From: Elusimicrobiota bacterium
GTDB lineage: Bacteria > Elusimicrobiota > Elusimicrobia > Elusimicrobiales > UBA9959
Direction: 5' to 3'
DNA: 64,000 nucleotides
NCBI GenBank assembly: GCA_016208085.1
Contig: JACQYT010000016.1
Coordinates: 1 to 64,000, forward strand
Below are positions 6,870 through 64,000 of the stretch, piece by piece (the first letter of the stretch is position 1; the number at the start of each line of letters is the position of its first letter). Made by a program: the position numbers and the translations under genes. The notes under the pieces were generated by a model, which was not told the origin of the DNA, searched no databases, and worked only from the letters and a program-made list of their open reading frames with translations.

Positions 6870-9671
6870 ATGCGCATGAAATTAACCGGTAAATGCCTGC
6901 TTATCTGGCTGTTGACGGCAGTTGATGTTCCGGCCCTCTTTGCCGCTCAGGTATGCTTTAATGACCGCGGCCAATCGTTCGGCTGCCGCGACGACGCCTA
7001 CTGCGTGCCGAACGTGCGCGGCAAACAGGCATGCCGTTTAAAACGCGATGCGAATAAATATTACTGGCCTGTGCCGGTGAAAGCGCCTTCCGGTTTTGAA
7101 AAAACACGGGAAGAAAGCGGCGGCGCGGCCTGCATGTCCCGGTTCAGGCCTTTCCTGGCGTACGCGGAGAGCGCCGGGGATTGGCGCCGGAAGATCGCCT
7201 ATTACAGCCAGGCTATTAACGGCTGGCTGCCTTGCGACGGCAAAGAGAAAAAAGCCGACGCTTACACGGGCCGCGGCTTTGCCCGCACCCAGATAGGCGA
7301 TTACCAGGCCGCCGAGAACGATTTCAAAACGGCCCTCAGCTTCAATCCTCAGGATCCCCTGCCGCATAACTACCTCGGGTCTGTTTACTACGATCAGCAA
7401 AAGTATGATGACGCCGTCAGCGAGTTTGATATGGCTTTTGCGTTGCAGCTGGAGGACAGGGATCCCGTGGCCGCGCGCGTCGCGGGCCGGTTCTACGAGC
7501 TCGCGGTTAAGGAGCAGGAAAAAGCAAAGCGGGAGAGAGCCGAGCGGGCGAAAGCGCAGCAGGCGGCGCGAAATGCTCAGGCCGCTGCGCCAAAACAGAG
7601 CGAAGGCCCCGTTGACGCGCCTGCCGGGCCCTCACCCGGGCAGCCGCATCTGTCGCCGGGGAGCGCCCCCGGCGGCAGCTCGAACCCTGCCGTCCCCGGG
7701 CAGACCCCCCCCGGGGCTGGGGGGGCCCCGGCGAACCCCTCCGCGGACCTGCCTGAACCCGCCAAAGTTCGCGTGTTCAAACCGCTGCCGGGAAAACCGG
7801 CGGGAAGCGACTGGGTGCGTTATTGCGTTATAGGTTTATTTTTGACGACGGCGCTCTTCCTTGCCGTTACCTATCTGGTCTTAAAAGGCGATCAGGGCAG
7901 GATCCGCCGCGAGCTCGGTCCCCTGGCAAAGGAACTGGGCGTAGACGTCCAATGGATGTTCTTCGGTTTTTTCATACCTCCGGACACGGAGTTCCACGGC
8001 AAGCTTATGATAACCCTGGTCCTCTGCTCGGTGCTGGGGTCTATAGCCGCCGGTTTTGTGTTTTTTAAATTTTCCCTGGACGTCGCCGTCAAAATACTGT
8101 CCGGCCCGATAATATCCGGCGCCATAGCGTGCTTAAGCGTTTTCGCCTCTTATTCCCTTAAGACAGGCGCCGGCCTGGAGCCGCAAGCCGGCTGCGGCCC
8201 CGCCGCCGCGCCCCCCCAAAGCCCGGGGGGGACGCCCGCCCCGCCGAATTATGAACGGCCGCCCGCGGCAATACCGGATTTTTCGGGGCTTCAGTCCAGG
8301 CCGGAGACGACCGGCCGCGAGTTAAGATCTTCAGCGGCGCGTTCCCGGCAGGTTAAAGCCCTTATGGACGCTGGAAACTACCAGGAGGCCCTTGAGCTGT
8401 TTTCCAGGAAGCGCCAGTTAAAAATAACCGACGCCGATAAAGACCAGCTTTTTGAGATCTATATCCGGCTCGGGGATTTTGACAGGGCCGGCAATCTGTT
8501 CGGCTCGCTGAAAGGCAGCGCTCTGCTGACGGGAAATATCGCGCGTTACGAGGAGCTGGCCGCCGTTTGCCGTAATAAAGGCGGGCAAGGCCTGGCCCGC
8601 AGGATCTGCAGCGGTCTGTTCGAAGCCCTGAAACCGGCCACGCGCGTGGCCGCCGGCGCGCCTGTGTATTATAAACTTGCGGCGTTTTGCGAGAGCCTGG
8701 GCGACGCCGAACTGGCGCGCGATATTTTCCGGCACATGATTGAGGCGGGATTTGAGAAATATCGGGACGTGTCCGCCCGCTACGAAGACCTGAAGACCAG
8801 GCTCTTCGTGGCCGTCGCGCCGGCGCAGCGCAACGCTCCCGCCGCCGGGGCCGCCGCAACCGGAGGCGCGGTTATCGGGGCTGTGCTTAACAATCAATAT
8901 GAGATAAAAGGCGAGCTCGGCGAGGGGGGCATGGCCAAGGTCTATGAAGGCCTGGACAGGAAGACGAGCCGGAAAGTGGCGGTCAAAAAGATGCATCCCT
9001 GGCTGAAAAAATTCCCGGAGGAGCACAAGCGGTTCGTGCAGGAAGCCAGGATAGTCAGCCGGCTTAACCACCCTAATATCGTGGGCGTGCAGGCGATCGT
9101 GGAGCAGGAGGGGGAAATATATCTGATCTTTGATTATGTGGACGGGAAGACCCTGTCCGACCTGTTAAAAGCGAAAGGTCTTTTGCAATTCCAGGAATGC
9201 AAGGACATTTTGAAAGGCGTGTGCGGAGCGGTCCAGTACGCCCATAAAACCAACGTCATTCACAGGGACCTTAAACCTTCCAACATAATGATAACCAGGG
9301 ACGGCGTCGCGCTGGTGATGGATTTCGGGCTGGCGAGCGAGCTGCGGGAAAGCCTCACGAGAGTGACCCATCAGACGACATCCGGAACGCCGGCCTATAT
9401 GGCGCCGGAGCAGTACCTGGGCGTGGTTAAGCGGGAATCCGATATTTACGCGATGGGCGTCTGCTTTTATGAGATGCTGACGGGAAAGCTCCCGTTCACG
9501 ACGGGGGACATTATGCAGCTGAAGAACGACAGGGAGTTCCGCGAGGTCAGCGCCCAGCTGCCGTGGCTGCCGGCCGGGATCGACGAGATCGTCTCCCGCG
9601 CGCTGGCCCCCGAGCCGTCGCAGAGGTTCGCCGACCCGATGGAATTCTTCGACGCGCTCAATAAACTGTGA
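6870..9671 (+). CDS. TPR-containing transmembrane Ser/Thr protein kinase
   Basis: TPR-like N-terminus, Pro-rich linkers, TM segments, C-terminal kinase with GELGEGGMAKVYEG, VAVKK, HRDLKPSNIM, DFGLA, GTPAYMAPEQ. Confidence 0.88.
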   Translation: MRMKLTGKCLLIWLLTAVDVPALFAAQVCFNDRGQSFGCRDDAYCVPNVRGKQACRLKRDANKYYWPVPVKAPSGFEKTREESGGAACMSRFRPFLAYAESAGDWRRKIAYYSQAINGWLPCDGKEKKADAYTGRGFARTQIGDYQAAENDFKTALSFNPQDPLPHNYLGSVYYDQQKYDDAVSEFDMAFALQLEDRDPVAARVAGRFYELAVKEQEKAKRERAERAKAQQAARNAQAAAPKQSEGPVDAPAGPSPGQPHLSPGSAPGGSSNPAVPGQTPPGAGGAPANPSADLPEPAKVRVFKPLPGKPAGSDWVRYCVIGLFLTTALFLAVTYLVLKGDQGRIRRELGPLAKELGVDVQWMFFGFFIPPDTEFHGKLMITLVLCSVLGSIAAGFVFFKFSLDVAVKILSGPIISGAIACLSVFASYSLKTGAGLEPQAGCGPAAAPPQSPGGTPAPPNYERPPAAIPDFSGLQSRPETTGRELRSSAARSRQVKALMDAGNYQEALELFSRKRQLKITDADKDQLFEIYIRLGDFDRAGNLFGSLKGSALLTGNIARYEELAAVCRNKGGQGLARRICSGLFEALKPATRVAAGAPVYYKLAAFCESLGDAELARDIFRHMIEAGFEKYRDVSARYEDLKTRLFVAVAPAQRNAPAAGAAATGGAVIGAVLNNQYEIKGELGEGGMAKVYEGLDRKTSRKVAVKKMHPWLKKFPEEHKRFVQEARIVSRLNHPNIVGVQAIVEQEGEIYLIFDYVDGKTLSDLLKAKGLLQFQECKDILKGVCGAVQYAHKTNVIHRDLKPSNIMITRDGVALVMDFGLASELRESLTRVTHQTTSGTPAYMAPEQYLGVVKRESDIYAMGVCFYEMLTGKLPFTTGDIMQLKNDREFREVSAQLPWLPAGIDEIVSRALAPEPSQRFADPMEFFDALNKL

Positions 9672-12138: not shown

Positions 12139-12452
12139 GAAACGGCAGTTGATAAGTTGACAAGCAAGAAAGTTGCGGCGCTTATCAACCAGTCAACTTA
12201 TAAACTTATCAACTTTCCTAAAATTCGGCCTGGGTCTTAAGTCCTATTCCGGCATAGGTCCATTTTCCTTGCCCGTCTGGGTCTAAGGCCCCTGCCGCAG
12301 GCACGCCGTTATGAGATAAACTAATATAAGAGGTTGTCTCTTGTAATCCTTCGAAGAGGCGAAGGAGCATCCACCTCCGGACCGATGAATCCGGGGTCAC
12401 CAGGGGAAACGGAATATTTGTATTATTTTCGTTTCCTCGTTTTATTTTCCGG

Positions 12453-21736: not shown

Positions 21737-21901
21737 GGAGCCTGTCCGACATAAGGCTTTCATGGCGAAATTGACGATTTTGAAGCCGAGCCGAAGCGAC
21801 GCGAAACGAGCGCCCTCGACGGAGGTTGTGAATTGAGCGGCGCAAAGGCGCAGGCAAAAAGCGGCAATTGCAGCCGAAATTGCTTATGTCGGACAGTCTC
21901 C
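21737..21901. mobile_element. MITE-like element with 19-bp TIRs
   Basis: ggagcCTGTCCGACATAAG ... CTTATGTCGGACAGtctcc; direct TAG at both flanks (21734-21736, 21902-21904). Confidence 0.65.
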
Positions 21902-21903
21902 TA

Positions 21904-21981
21904 GCAGCGCGAGAGCAAGAGAGTAGCAGTTTAAAACAAAAAAAGCGCCTTTTTGACTGTCGCGCTGTCGCGCTTTCTATT
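21904..21981. repeat. Inverted-arm element, family C
   Basis: gcagcgcgagagcaagagagtagcag - tttaaaacaaaaaaagcgcctttttga - ctgtcgcgctgtcgcgctttct. Confidence 0.7.
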
Positions 21982-23544
21982 ATGAAAAAGTCAAAGCAAC
22001 TCCTGAACGGTCTTGACTCGGCCGGGGAACCCCCCGTGTTTTTTGAGAGCCGGGAAGCTTTCCTCAAAGGGCTGCTGGAAACCGCTTCAAAGCTTGTCGC
22101 GGCCGAGCGGGTGTCTTTTTACTATTACGACGAGAAAAACGCGCTCCTGCGCCTGATGATGCGCCGCTCGGGCGGCGCGTCCTTCGAGGCCGAGGAAAAC
22201 GTGCGCCAGGGGCGGAATTCGCCGGCGGCCTCGGCGCTCGCCGCGCTTAAGCCGCTGGTTTTCAGGAACAGGGCCGGCCATTTCCTGCTGACGCCTTTCC
22301 GCATAGAAATATATTCCGCGTCCGCCAACCGCGAAGCTCCCATCCAGGGCCTGATCAAGCTGGAGCGCTCCCTGAAGAAGCGGCGCTTCTCGCCGGCCGA
22401 GGCTGCCCTGGCCCAGGAACGCCTCGGCGGCTTCATGCGCAGCTATTACAAGGCCGAGTTTGTGGCCTTGAACAGAAAATACGCCAAGAACCTGGCCGCC
22501 ATCACGGAGCTTACCGAGATCTTCGCCAATTCGCTCCGGGTGCGGGAAAGCTTCAAACATATTCTGACGGGCATCCAGACCTATTTCGGCTTTGACCGGG
22601 TGCGTCTCTATCTGATAGATGAAAAAGCCCGGAAACTGAAAGGGGAGTTCAGCTCCGACATCAGGGGCCAGATCAAAAGCATAGCTTACGAGGAGATCCC
22701 GCTGGAAAGCGGCGCGCACCGGTTCGCCGATATCGTGCTGGGCAAAAATTCAAACACCTTCATGGAGCGCTACAAAGACTGCGTCCTCTATCTGCCGCTG
22801 ATAGTGCAGGGCGTGACCATAGGCCTTCTGATCGTGGACAATCTTTTGAGCCAGCAGAAAATAGCGCCCGGGGAACTGGCCATGCTGAAATCTTTCGCGG
22901 GCCAGATAGGCCTTGCGCTGGACAATGTCCGGCTTTTTGACAAGGTGGAAGAACTCTCGCTGTACGACGAACTGACCAAACTGCCTTTGAGAAGATATTT
23001 CAACCAGCGTTTCCAGGAAGAGTTCTACCGCGCGGAACGTTTCGCCACCCCGCTGGCCGTTATCTGGGCGGACATAGACTATTTCAAGGAAGTGAACGAT
23101 ACCTACGGGCACCAGATAGGCGACAAGGTGCTGAAAGAGATCGGCCGGGTCATACTTTCAAACCTGCGCAAGATAGATTTCCCCTGCCGTTACGGCGGCG
23201 ACGAAATAATAATACTGCTGCCGCAGGCCAGCGGCGAAGAAGCCCGCAAGCTCTCCCGGCGCCTGGCCGAGGAAATAGCCGAGATAAAAATCCCGGTGCC
23301 TTTTTCAAAGGCCCGGGAACTGGCCGTCTCGCTCAGCGTCGGCATTTCCACTTTCCCCGCCGACGCGGCCTCCATGGAAAGCCTTCTTGAAAAAGCCGAC
23401 GACGCCTTATACTGGGTCAAATCCCAGGGCCGCGGGCGCATAGCGCTCGCGAGCGAAGTGAAGGCCGAGAAAAGCAGGGTAGAGGGTAGAGGGGATAGGG
23501 TAGAGGGTAGAGGGGATAGGGTAGAGGGTGAAGAAAAAGTATAG
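21982..23544 (+). CDS. GAF-GGDEF diguanylate cyclase; C-terminal tail encoded by a family A repeat
   Basis: ELSLYDELTKLPLRRYFNQRF, IWADIDYFKEVNDTYGHQIGDKVL, CRYGGDEIIILLP (GGDEI); tail SRVEGRGDRVEGRGDRVEGEEKV. Confidence 0.9.
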   Translation: MKKSKQLLNGLDSAGEPPVFFESREAFLKGLLETASKLVAAERVSFYYYDEKNALLRLMMRRSGGASFEAEENVRQGRNSPAASALAALKPLVFRNRAGHFLLTPFRIEIYSASANREAPIQGLIKLERSLKKRRFSPAEAALAQERLGGFMRSYYKAEFVALNRKYAKNLAAITELTEIFANSLRVRESFKHILTGIQTYFGFDRVRLYLIDEKARKLKGEFSSDIRGQIKSIAYEEIPLESGAHRFADIVLGKNSNTFMERYKDCVLYLPLIVQGVTIGLLIVDNLLSQQKIAPGELAMLKSFAGQIGLALDNVRLFDKVEELSLYDELTKLPLRRYFNQRFQEEFYRAERFATPLAVIWADIDYFKEVNDTYGHQIGDKVLKEIGRVILSNLRKIDFPCRYGGDEIIILLPQASGEEARKLSRRLAEEIAEIKIPVPFSKARELAVSLSVGISTFPADAASMESLLEKADDALYWVKSQGRGRIALASEVKAEKSRVEGRGDRVEGRGDRVEGEEKV

Positions 23545-61693: not shown

Positions 61694-61724
61694 TAAAACC
61701 CTTGACATGTCAATGATTCACCCC

Positions 61725-61752
61725 TTGACAAATGAAATGAATCTGCTATACT
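61725..61752 (+). promoter_or_regulatory. Sigma70-like promoter driving the riboswitch leader
   Basis: TTGACA - 16 nt - TATACT. Confidence 0.65.
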
Positions 61753-61811
61753 ATTAGACAGCAGTGAGAAAGGCGCTCCGCACTTTGGCCCGTTCAGAAA
61801 AAGCGCGGGGC

Positions 61812-61896
61812 AGGTCGCGATAATGGCAAAGCCGGCTAAAGCCGGCGGCGCAAAGCCGAGACCCGCGAAGTGCGGCGGGAGTCAGGCTGCCGAAGA
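61812..61896 (+). ncRNA. c-di-GMP-I (GEMM)-type riboswitch aptamer
   Basis: GGCAAA[GCCGGC UAAA GCCGGC]GGCGCAAAGCC GA [GACCCGC...GCGGGAGUC] AGGCUGCCG follows GEMM-I order: GGCAAA, P1b hairpin, GCAAAGCC, P2 hairpin, GGCU-GCC closing strands. Confidence 0.72.
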
Positions 61897-61920
61897 TTAG
61901 AAGGGACCTGAATTTTTTTA

Positions 61921-61976
61921 GGCCGTTTCTGCCGTCTTCGGGGTATACGAAGAAAGCTGAAACGGCCGTTGTTTTT
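61921..61976 (+). terminator. Terminator hairpin, likely riboswitch expression platform
   Basis: ggccgtttct gccg tcttcg gggtata cgaaga aagctg aaacggcc gttgtttttt. Confidence 0.75.
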
Positions 61977-62061
61977 TCGGGGGAGACATGGGCGCAAAAA
62001 GAGGGTTGCTTTTTGAGCGTTATATACTATAATTGCAAGTATCCGCAAAAAGGCGTCAGAT

Positions 62062-62586
62062 ATGACTGAAAAGGAGTTTGTAAACAGGGTCACCAACAGC
62101 AAAGCTGATTTTTTGAAACAGTTTTTTAATATTTTGAAGCGCGAAAAAACGGGATTTTGCGTCATAGGCGGTTTAGCCGTAAATGTCTACGCGGAGCCGT
62201 TGGTCAGTCTGGATTTGGATGTCGTCGTCGCTCTGGAGAAGTTAGACGCTTTAACCGCTATTCTGGCGAAAAAGTTTAAAGTCAGGGTATTTGAGCGCAG
62301 CGTAAATGTTTTTTCGGCCTCGTCCGACATCAGAATTCAGATACAGCGGGATGGAAGATATCAGGGGTTTGTCAGGCAGGCCAGAATCAGAAAGGTACTG
62401 GGCTATAAATTGCCGGTGGCGGGGATTGCGGATGTGCTGCGCGGGAAAGTCTGGGCGTATTCGGACGCGACAAGGCGCCCCAGCAAAAGGCAGAAGGACC
62501 TGGCTGATATAATGAGGCTGCTGGAGGCTGAAAAGGGCTTGTCCAGACTGCTCCCGGCGGCGGTAAAAAGGGCTTTGAAGTTATAG
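62062..62586 (+). CDS. Nucleotidyltransferase-fold protein (AbiEii/DUF6036-like)
   Basis: FCVIGGLAVNVYAEPLVSLDLDVVVALE...KDLADIMRLLEA. Confidence 0.65.
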   Translation: MTEKEFVNRVTNSKADFLKQFFNILKREKTGFCVIGGLAVNVYAEPLVSLDLDVVVALEKLDALTAILAKKFKVRVFERSVNVFSASSDIRIQIQRDGRYQGFVRQARIRKVLGYKLPVAGIADVLRGKVWAYSDATRRPSKRQKDLADIMRLLEAEKGLSRLLPAAVKRALKL

Positions 62587-62650: not shown

Positions 62651-63031
62651 ATGGGATTGACTCATGTGACTGTAAGCTTGAAAACAAACGAAAGGGCAAA
62701 AAAGCAATACGAAGCGGATTTTCTGGTTGATACAGGAGCCACTGATTGTTTAGCGCCGGCGGCGGAATTAAAAAAAATTGGAGTAACCCCTGCTGGGAAA
62801 ATGGTTTATGAATTGGCAAATGGAGACAAGGTTGAATATAAATTCGGGCTTGGAGTGATTGAGTTCATGGGTGAAATTACCGCCGGTCGGATTATATTCG
62901 GTCCTGATGATGCTGAGCCGATATTAGGTGTTACCGCTCTGGAATCAGTGGGTATTTTAGTTGATCCTGTAAAACAGACTCTCAAACGTATGCCGGCTAT
63001 ACCATTAAAGCGGTTGCGATATGAAACCTGA
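62651..63031 (+). CDS. Clan AA aspartic (retropepsin-like) protease
   Basis: DFLVDTGATDCLAPAAELKKIGV active-site motif; GVTALESVGILVDP. Confidence 0.75.
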   Translation: MGLTHVTVSLKTNERAKKQYEADFLVDTGATDCLAPAAELKKIGVTPAGKMVYELANGDKVEYKFGLGVIEFMGEITAGRIIFGPDDAEPILGVTALESVGILVDPVKQTLKRMPAIPLKRLRYET

Positions 63032-63053: not shown

Positions 63054-63121
63054 AAAGGCGGATTAAAAGCCGTTCTGGCCCGCTTTTACCCAGTTATTAA
63101 GATATTAAGAACCGTCCCCTA
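63054..63121. repeat. 68-bp direct repeat, copy 1
   Basis: aaaggcggattaaaagccgttctggcccgcttttacccagttattaagatattaagaaccgtccccta. Confidence 0.85.
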
Positions 63122-63127
63122 TGACCT

Positions 63128-63304
63128 ATGAAAATGGAAATCAGATTTTTCGACGAGAAGATCCCTTCCGATAAAACGGAAAAAACGGCGGAAGATATTT
63201 TTAAATCCGCGGGGCAGATAATGTTCAACTATTACAAACTGGTCTGGAAGAAGGACATCAGGCGGATGGGAGCGAAATATACGGTCAGGCTGGCAAAAAC
63301 ATGA
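63128..63304 (+). CDS. 58-aa hypothetical protein (absent from the ORF track)
   Basis: MKMEIRFFDEKIPSDKTEKTAEDIFKSAGQIMFNYYKLVWKKDIRRMGAKYTVRLAKT*; ATGA overlap with the next gene. Confidence 0.6.
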   Translation: MKMEIRFFDEKIPSDKTEKTAEDIFKSAGQIMFNYYKLVWKKDIRRMGAKYTVRLAKT

Positions 63305-63759
63305 GCGGGTTTTCCTACACCGACGAATATCTGGAATTTCTGCATGCCCTGGACAGGCATAAGATTGAGTATCTGCTGATCGGCGCTTACGCCGTTATGA
63401 TTCACACAAAAGTCCCGAGAGCGACCAAAGATATGGATACCTGGATAAGACAGACCCGGGAAAACGCGATTAAGTTGTCGGCGGCATTGAAGGAATTCGG
63501 GGGCCTGGAGGTTTCTGAGGAGGCTGTTTTGAAGCTGGGTCAAAGAATTGAAATCAAAAGCGAGGCGTTCAAAATTGAGATCTGGACTTCCCAGGAAATC
63601 CTGGGTTTTGAAGAAGCGTGGGAAAGGAAAATGACGGATACTGTGGAGAATTTTTCCATTAACGTGATCTCAAAAGAGGATTTGATAAAACTCAAAAAGC
63701 ATTTTAACAGGCCGCAGGATAAAATGGATTTGAGCCTGCTCCAAGAAAAAGATTTATGA
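63301..63759 (+). CDS. Nucleotidyltransferase-like protein (DUF6036-like)
   Basis: EYLLIGAYAVMIHTKVPRATKDMDTWI...ISKEDLIKLKKHFNRPQDKMDLSLL. Confidence 0.72.
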   Translation: MSGFSYTDEYLEFLHALDRHKIEYLLIGAYAVMIHTKVPRATKDMDTWIRQTRENAIKLSAALKEFGGLEVSEEAVLKLGQRIEIKSEAFKIEIWTSQEILGFEEAWERKMTDTVENFSINVISKEDLIKLKKHFNRPQDKMDLSLLQEKDL

Positions 63760-63785: not shown

Positions 63786-63853
63786 AAAGGCGGATTAGAA
63801 TCCGTCCTGGCCCGCTTTTACCCAGTTATTAAGATATTAAGAACCGTCCCCTA
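63786..63853. repeat. 68-bp direct repeat, copy 2
   Basis: aaaggcggattagaatccgtcctggcccgcttttacccagttattaagatattaagaaccgtccccta; 3 mismatches to copy 1. Confidence 0.85.
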
Positions 63854-63939
63854 AAACGTTACGGCGGGGAGAAAATTTATGTCGGCAATTTATGTCGGCA
63901 ATTGACTATCCCGGTGAAAATATACTAAAGTTAGGGATT

Positions 63940-64000
63940 ATGAAAACAAAAAACATGCTGGCGCTTGCAGTTATTTTAATTTTCTGCGCCGCAATCGGTT
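63940..64000 (+). CDS. N-terminus of a secreted protein, truncated by window edge
   Basis: MKTKNMLALAVILIFCAAIG signal-peptide-like start. Confidence 0.5.
   Translation, partial: MKTKNMLALAVILIFCAAIG

Follow-up and report, generated by a model that had tools for sequence, protein, structure and literature searches.

This locus raises the question whether a short leader RNA near the end of the 64,000-nucleotide stretch analysed here (the window) senses a cyclic dinucleotide, which one, and what it controls. The host is an uncultured member of the Elusimicrobia, represented by a metagenome-assembled genome of 3.14 Mb in 136 contigs. The sequence-only reading of the window had described a promoter, a GEMM-I aptamer and a strong T-tailed hairpin as one unit, and all three parts could be located, in a genome that encodes canonical diguanylate cyclases:

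61725-61752, + strand: sigma70-type promoter TTGACA-16-TATACT, 11/12 consensus
61815-61894, + strand: c-di-GMP-I (GEMM-I) aptamer
61921-61977, + strand: intrinsic terminator, stem 61921-61932/61956-61967, upper stem 61935-61940/61948-61953, U tract 61969-61977

In order to identify the aptamer, the 64-kb window was searched with the Rfam covariance models. The match to RF01051 (c-di-GMP-I) scored 59.7 bits (E 3.7e-9) against a gathering cut-off of 35 bits and spanned the full model, columns 1-87, which confirms the proposed GEMM-I assignment. In the model alignment the equivalents of the ligand-contacting G20, A47 and C92 of Vc2 are present as G61825, A61852 and the CC at 61890-61891, and their spacing equals that in Vc2. 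Judged from its sequence, the element is a genuine GEMM-I RNA switch of the c-di-GMP type, for which binding is predicted. The same window carries a 2dG-II riboswitch at 12336-12408 on the + strand (RF03165, 69.4 bits, cut-off 60), and the next gene starts at about 12453.

The unusual loop of the first aptamer hairpin had been taken as a possible weakness in tetraloop-receptor docking:

61837-61840, + strand: UAAA tetraloop of the first aptamer hairpin (P1b, the structural P2)

A GNRA loop with a tetraloop receptor is common in GEMM-I aptamers, but it is not obligatory. The UAAA loop is indeed there; the window aptamer has no receptor, and the other copies with a short P3 are alike. A recognisable receptor was absent in 56 of the 70 copies found in the host's family (one or two of these owing to the limits of the search pattern), and the loops of these 56 copies were GAAA in 16, UAAA in 14, CAAA in 8, GCAA in 6, and others. 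Since the receptor is missing in the whole short-P3 class, there is no docking for UAAA to weaken, and that explanation was rejected; variety of the loop is normal within this class. Two types of c-di-GMP-I aptamers have been described, GNRA with receptor and GYRA without it (PMC11218506), and the receptor-less Elusimicrobia class fits neither of them exactly. Long-P3 copies with a GGCUAA receptor were also observed, at L036:6582-6684 (contig 41 of the host) and as class II copies in G001, G009, G012, G019 and G033; in these the 3' half of the aptamer is duplicated downstream (GCCGGCNGAGCTGCCGAA), possibly as a competing switching strand. In some relatives (L020, L022, L031 and L060) a long extra 5' hairpin, CCCGTTAGAGGCGC...GCGCCTCTAACGGG, lies between the promoter and the aptamer.

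The choice of ligand turns on one base:

61825, + strand: ligand-selectivity base, the Vc2 G20 equivalent (taken as Rfam column 11), G here and A in most paralogues

An A at position 20 is the mark of the cGAMP-sensing Geobacter subclass, GEMM-Ib. The G20A mutant has been treated as a cGAMP binder (PMC6274999), and G11 of Cd1, the equivalent of G20, was called a selectivity factor (PMC9262584). Base 61825 is G, so c-di-GMP appears to be the simplest ligand for the window copy. Most of its paralogues differ: A was found in 59 of the 70 family copies and G in 11, five copies outside the search pattern having been read by eye, and the neighbouring copy at 65172 on contig 3 and the one at 114155 are both of the A type. 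These A-type copies are the reason to consider that the window switch senses 3',3'-cGAMP, or both dinucleotides, like most paralogues. We regard this as improbable, since base 61825 has the c-di-GMP form and the host genome has neither a detected Hypr GGDEF nor a SMODS enzyme; it encodes instead three GGDEF enzymes of the canonical kind, in which the Hypr position is Asp, as well as PilZ proteins. In Geobacter cGAMP is made by a Hypr GGDEF in which Ser replaces Asp (PMC6456294). All GGDEFs detected in the host genome carry Asp, so no Hypr enzyme was found there, and across the 59 family genomes the Ser-type pattern gave a single plausible site (G013), while the Asp-type control pattern matched 56 of the 59. 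The CD-NTases were likewise rejected as a cGAMP source: SMODS was found in 6 of the 59 family genomes and was absent from the host genome. The GGDEF and pilus loci which had been noticed in the window are present, a GAF-GGDEF gene at 21868-23544 and a Tad/Flp pilus locus at about 32.8-38.5 kb with RcpC, secretin, T2SSE ATPase and T2SSF.

The hairpin at 61921-61967 is as strong as had been claimed: folded alone it has -28.5 kcal/mol, and it is followed by UUGUUUUUU. A simple terminator scan did not pick it up, probably because its upper part has mismatches. Two strands connect it to the aptamer:

61890-61896, + strand: CCGAAGA, shared strand, either the 3' end of the aptamer (ligand-site CC and P1) or the 5' strand of the antiterminator
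61935-61941, + strand: UCUUCGG, switching strand, pairing with 61890-61896 (antiterminator) or partly with 61948-61953 (terminator)

This expression platform, which the sequence-only reading had left undescribed, is common to 29 distinct copies, the window copy included. The CCGAAGA/UCUUCGG pairing forms in all 29, enclosing a spacer of 25-106 nt whose sequence diverges widely between genera. The terminator also forms in 29/29; in this competing fold UCUUCGG pairs with a downstream CGAAGA within GGCCGUUUC...GAAACGGCC. In a terminator alignment of 26 copies 94.2% of the cells were paired, compared with 43-54% when the alignment was slid, and 17 compensatory cells were counted against 5.5 in shuffles; three copies whose upper stem is short are misaligned there, and each of them folds well singly. 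Since the antiterminator helix is nearly invariant, the case for it rests on conservation and exclusion, not on compensatory change. P1 does covary: the two letters after CCGAA pair with those before CGATAAT in 51 of 63 copies (shuffled mean 35.7, 0/5000), a figure which is not a probability because the shuffle ignores relatedness. The two letters after CCGAA are GA with this platform and AA with the other common platform, that is, the 3' letters of P1 switch together with the platform type.

Folding of the nascent RNA placed these pairings in order. For transcripts ending between 61943 and 61963 the minimum free energy fold was the antiterminator (-80.2 to -84.4 kcal/mol), and the terminator took its place (-90.5 kcal/mol) once its 3' arm was complete at 61968. 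Forcing the full aptamer in the nascent RNA was 2-10 kcal/mol costlier than the antiterminator, in energies which omit tertiary and ligand terms. The aptamer, antiterminator and terminator pairings are mutually exclusive, as is expected of a transcriptional OFF riboswitch. Since a single strand is used either in P1 and the ligand site or in the antiterminator, binding of the ligand should favour termination.

The combination of aptamer and platform is not due to chance, because it is common to 29 distinct copies in one bacterial family. Among the 61 genomes searched, 30 had GEMM-I copies, all of them in the host's own family; the sister family, which belongs to the same order, had none. The host genome has four: the window copy, those at 65172 and 114155 on the same contig, and one on contig 41. 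The exact platform motif GCCGTTTYNGCYGTCTTCGGG occurs in 32 stretches across GTDB; a GEMM aptamer lies upstream at 22 of the 22 Elusimicrobia-type sites (two of them titled only 'bacterium') and at none of the 10 sites in other phyla, one of which has little upstream sequence. The type of switch is known, and here it is part of an undescribed family-wide set with one promoter and one terminator design.

The promoter was confirmed where it had been proposed, with the -35 box TTGACA at 61725-61730, a spacer of 16 nt and the -10 box TATACT at 61747-61752, and near-perfect TTGACA-16-TATAAT/TATACT promoters stand at most of the relatives' copies. A palindrome precedes it:

61702-61713, no strand assigned: palindrome TTGACATGTCAA, candidate operator, 11 bp before the -35 box; the pattern recurs at GEMM promoters

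In the 3.14-Mb genome TTGACNNGTCAA lies 10-14 bp before a TTGACA -35 box at three sites (61702-61713, and positions 65038 and 114068 of contig 3), solely at short-P3 GEMM promoters. The operator-plus-promoter pattern was found at about 64 sites in the host family and at none in 24 sister-family genomes. The strong sigma70 promoter is probably gated by a regulator acting at the TTGACATGTCAA palindrome. At other promoters, such as the one before an acetate-kinase-like gene (L159) and one on contig 7 (L157), the TTGACNNGTCAA palindrome overlaps the -35 box.

The operator also occurs without an aptamer. Most of the sampled sites of this kind precede a conserved small hairpin RNA with a terminator, and the neighbouring genes run the opposite way. 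This undescribed RNA, GGAGCGG-ACACCU....ACGGU-CCGCUCC plus terminator behind a GEMM-type promoter, is present in 34 of the 59 family genomes, the host included (L155, G000 contig 123, about 8146-8199, minus strand; in relatives L141-L145, L147, L148 and L154), and no Rfam family matched it at the gathering cut-offs.

What the window unit controls has to be read from the genes that follow:

62013-62033, + strand: possible second promoter (ATATACTATAAT), 3' of the terminator
62062-62586, + strand: first downstream gene, without a Pfam match; nucleotidyltransferase-like, judged from similar genes at related loci
62651-63031, + strand: retropepsin-like aspartyl protease gene (PF13650, 26.4 bits, cut-off 24.3)
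63301-63759, + strand: nucleotidyltransferase gene (DUF6036; PF19502, 30.0 bits)
63892-64000, + strand: start of a secreted HEAT-repeat protein gene (HEAT_2, 7.5e-45), running to about 65067 on the contig

At almost every copy that was inspected, the genes downstream share the strand of the riboswitch, and in most relatives the platform is followed by a secreted HEAT-repeat gene and then by a giant surface-protein gene. Ancestrally, the target was likely the HEAT-repeat gene at 63892, behind which the giant surface protein is encoded. At the window locus three genes, nucleotidyltransferase-like, aspartyl protease and nucleotidyltransferase, stand between the aptamer and the HEAT gene, and genes similar to the first of them follow GEMM copies in G010, G005 and G020. 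A reading of GCCGTTTCTGCTGTCTTCGGGG (AVSAVFG) as a signal peptide was dropped, as it is preceded by an in-frame TAG, both in the window copy and in those relatives that were inspected by eye. A direct repeat of 68 bp occurs at 63054-63121 and 63786-63853, with 96% identity and an offset of 732 bp; a related sequence is found ahead of the giant-protein gene, at about contig position 66330, and codes there for the N-terminus of the protein. The start of the second HEAT gene (contig 3, 65497-66150; L034:9498-10151) is an apparent fusion in which a nucleotidyltransferase-like N-terminus (TDFLKRFFNVLKREKAGFCVISGLA), resembling the gene at 62062, is joined to a body of HEAT repeats.

The distance to the HEAT gene, three genes away, and the A-type copy at 65172 standing directly before the next HEAT gene might suggest a decayed copy, in which the inserted nucleotidyltransferase and protease genes cut the link to the HEAT operon, so that nothing useful is controlled. 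This is very hard to reconcile with the intact ligand-site bases, switch helices (both of them), operator and promoter, and with G010, which keeps the same order of G-type GEMM, nucleotidyltransferase, HEAT and giant gene; we give it very little credence.

A more serious difficulty is the TATAAT block which follows the terminator within 330 nt in 17 of 20 copies, where 2.8 were expected from shuffling. It makes a second promoter likely ahead of the first gene, in which case the operon could be expressed even when no polymerase passes the terminator, and it keeps alive the explanation that the unit is a stand-alone c-di-GMP-binding small RNA like the Bdellovibrio merRNA, which would act as a buffer for c-di-GMP, with the downstream genes served by a promoter of their own. 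The completeness of the promoter-aptamer-terminator unit, the varying first downstream gene and the use of the same operator-promoter for the separate hairpin RNA in relatives agree with it as well. However, the tail of the aptamer is matched to the platform in a way that serves switching, which a sponge does not need, and the genes, typically HEAT and giant surface protein, are co-oriented at nearly all copies. A stand-alone RNA is therefore rather unlikely, if less so than cGAMP sensing or decay.

We consider it likely that the window element is a class I c-di-GMP riboswitch working as a transcription attenuator, an OFF switch. According to this attenuator model, the leader RNA would be made from the strong sigma70 promoter. 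Without c-di-GMP, CCGAAGA at the 3' end of the aptamer would capture the emerging UCUUCGG, the 5' arm of the terminator would be tied up in a long antiterminator hairpin, and the polymerase could continue into the operon of nucleotidyltransferases, aspartyl protease, HEAT-repeat protein and giant surface protein. Once c-di-GMP is bound, the ligand pocket and the P1 helix would hold the CC and GA of CCGAAGA, UCUUCGG would enter the terminator and transcription would stop. Transcription of the surface-protein genes is thus probably halted when c-di-GMP is high.

A broader proposal may be put forward tentatively, and we doubt it more than we favour it. It supposes a two-ligand regulon in which one transcription-factor operator and riboswitch paralogues of both types, mostly A-type and cGAMP-like, here G-type, act on the same surface-protein operons; a change of ligand type at one and the same locus would have taken place in separate genera (G-type in the host, G009 and G010), and the A-type signal would come from an enzyme that is neither a Ser-signature Hypr GGDEF nor a SMODS nucleotidyltransferase. 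A-type aptamers are kept across the family, whereas hardly any of the enzymes known to make cGAMP were found there; either the base-20 rule fails in this Elusimicrobia family, or the cGAMP synthase of the phylum is still undiscovered. The literature searched gave no report of c-di-GMP or cGAMP riboswitches in Elusimicrobia. The attenuator model offers a testable prediction of how this little-studied phylum switches giant surface proteins. The interest beyond a single riboswitch lies in the operator that the copies share, in the two ligand types found together and in the cGAMP synthase that is missing.

Among the known systems, Cd1 of C. difficile is a proven OFF switch, with an antiterminator when ligand-free and a terminator when bound (PMC9262584). 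Control is transcriptional in both, the OFF direction being predicted here, and in both the 3' strand of the aptamer has two possible partners, one inside the aptamer and the other a switching strand that is otherwise part of the terminator. Cd1 has a tetraloop-receptor contact and no clear P1, whereas the window copy lacks the receptor and its P1 covaries; the targets of Cd1 are flagellar genes, those of the window switch, by prediction, surface-protein genes. With Vc2 the window copy shares the full RF01051 model and the contact bases, but Vc2 has a GNRA loop and a translational platform, in contrast to the UAAA loop, the short receptor-less P3 and the transcription terminator found here. 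The Geobacter GEMM-Ib cGAMP riboswitches (pilM, Gs1761) belong to the same aptamer family and share the A at position 20 with the paralogues of the window copy, which itself has G; the pilM riboswitch is an ON switch with a different strand logic. The merRNA of Bdellovibrio bacteriovorus (PMC3627812) also carries a c-di-GMP-I aptamer behind its own promoter, but it is 445 nt long with no conserved downstream ORF, while the window unit has co-oriented genes and a switch-like platform. Bc1 of Bacillus thuringiensis (PMC11218506) resembles it in strong intrinsic termination in the leader and, by prediction for the window unit, in the interplay with a transcription factor; it differs in its two terminators and in its GAAA loop with receptor, where the window unit has a single terminator and, ahead of its promoter, a candidate operator.
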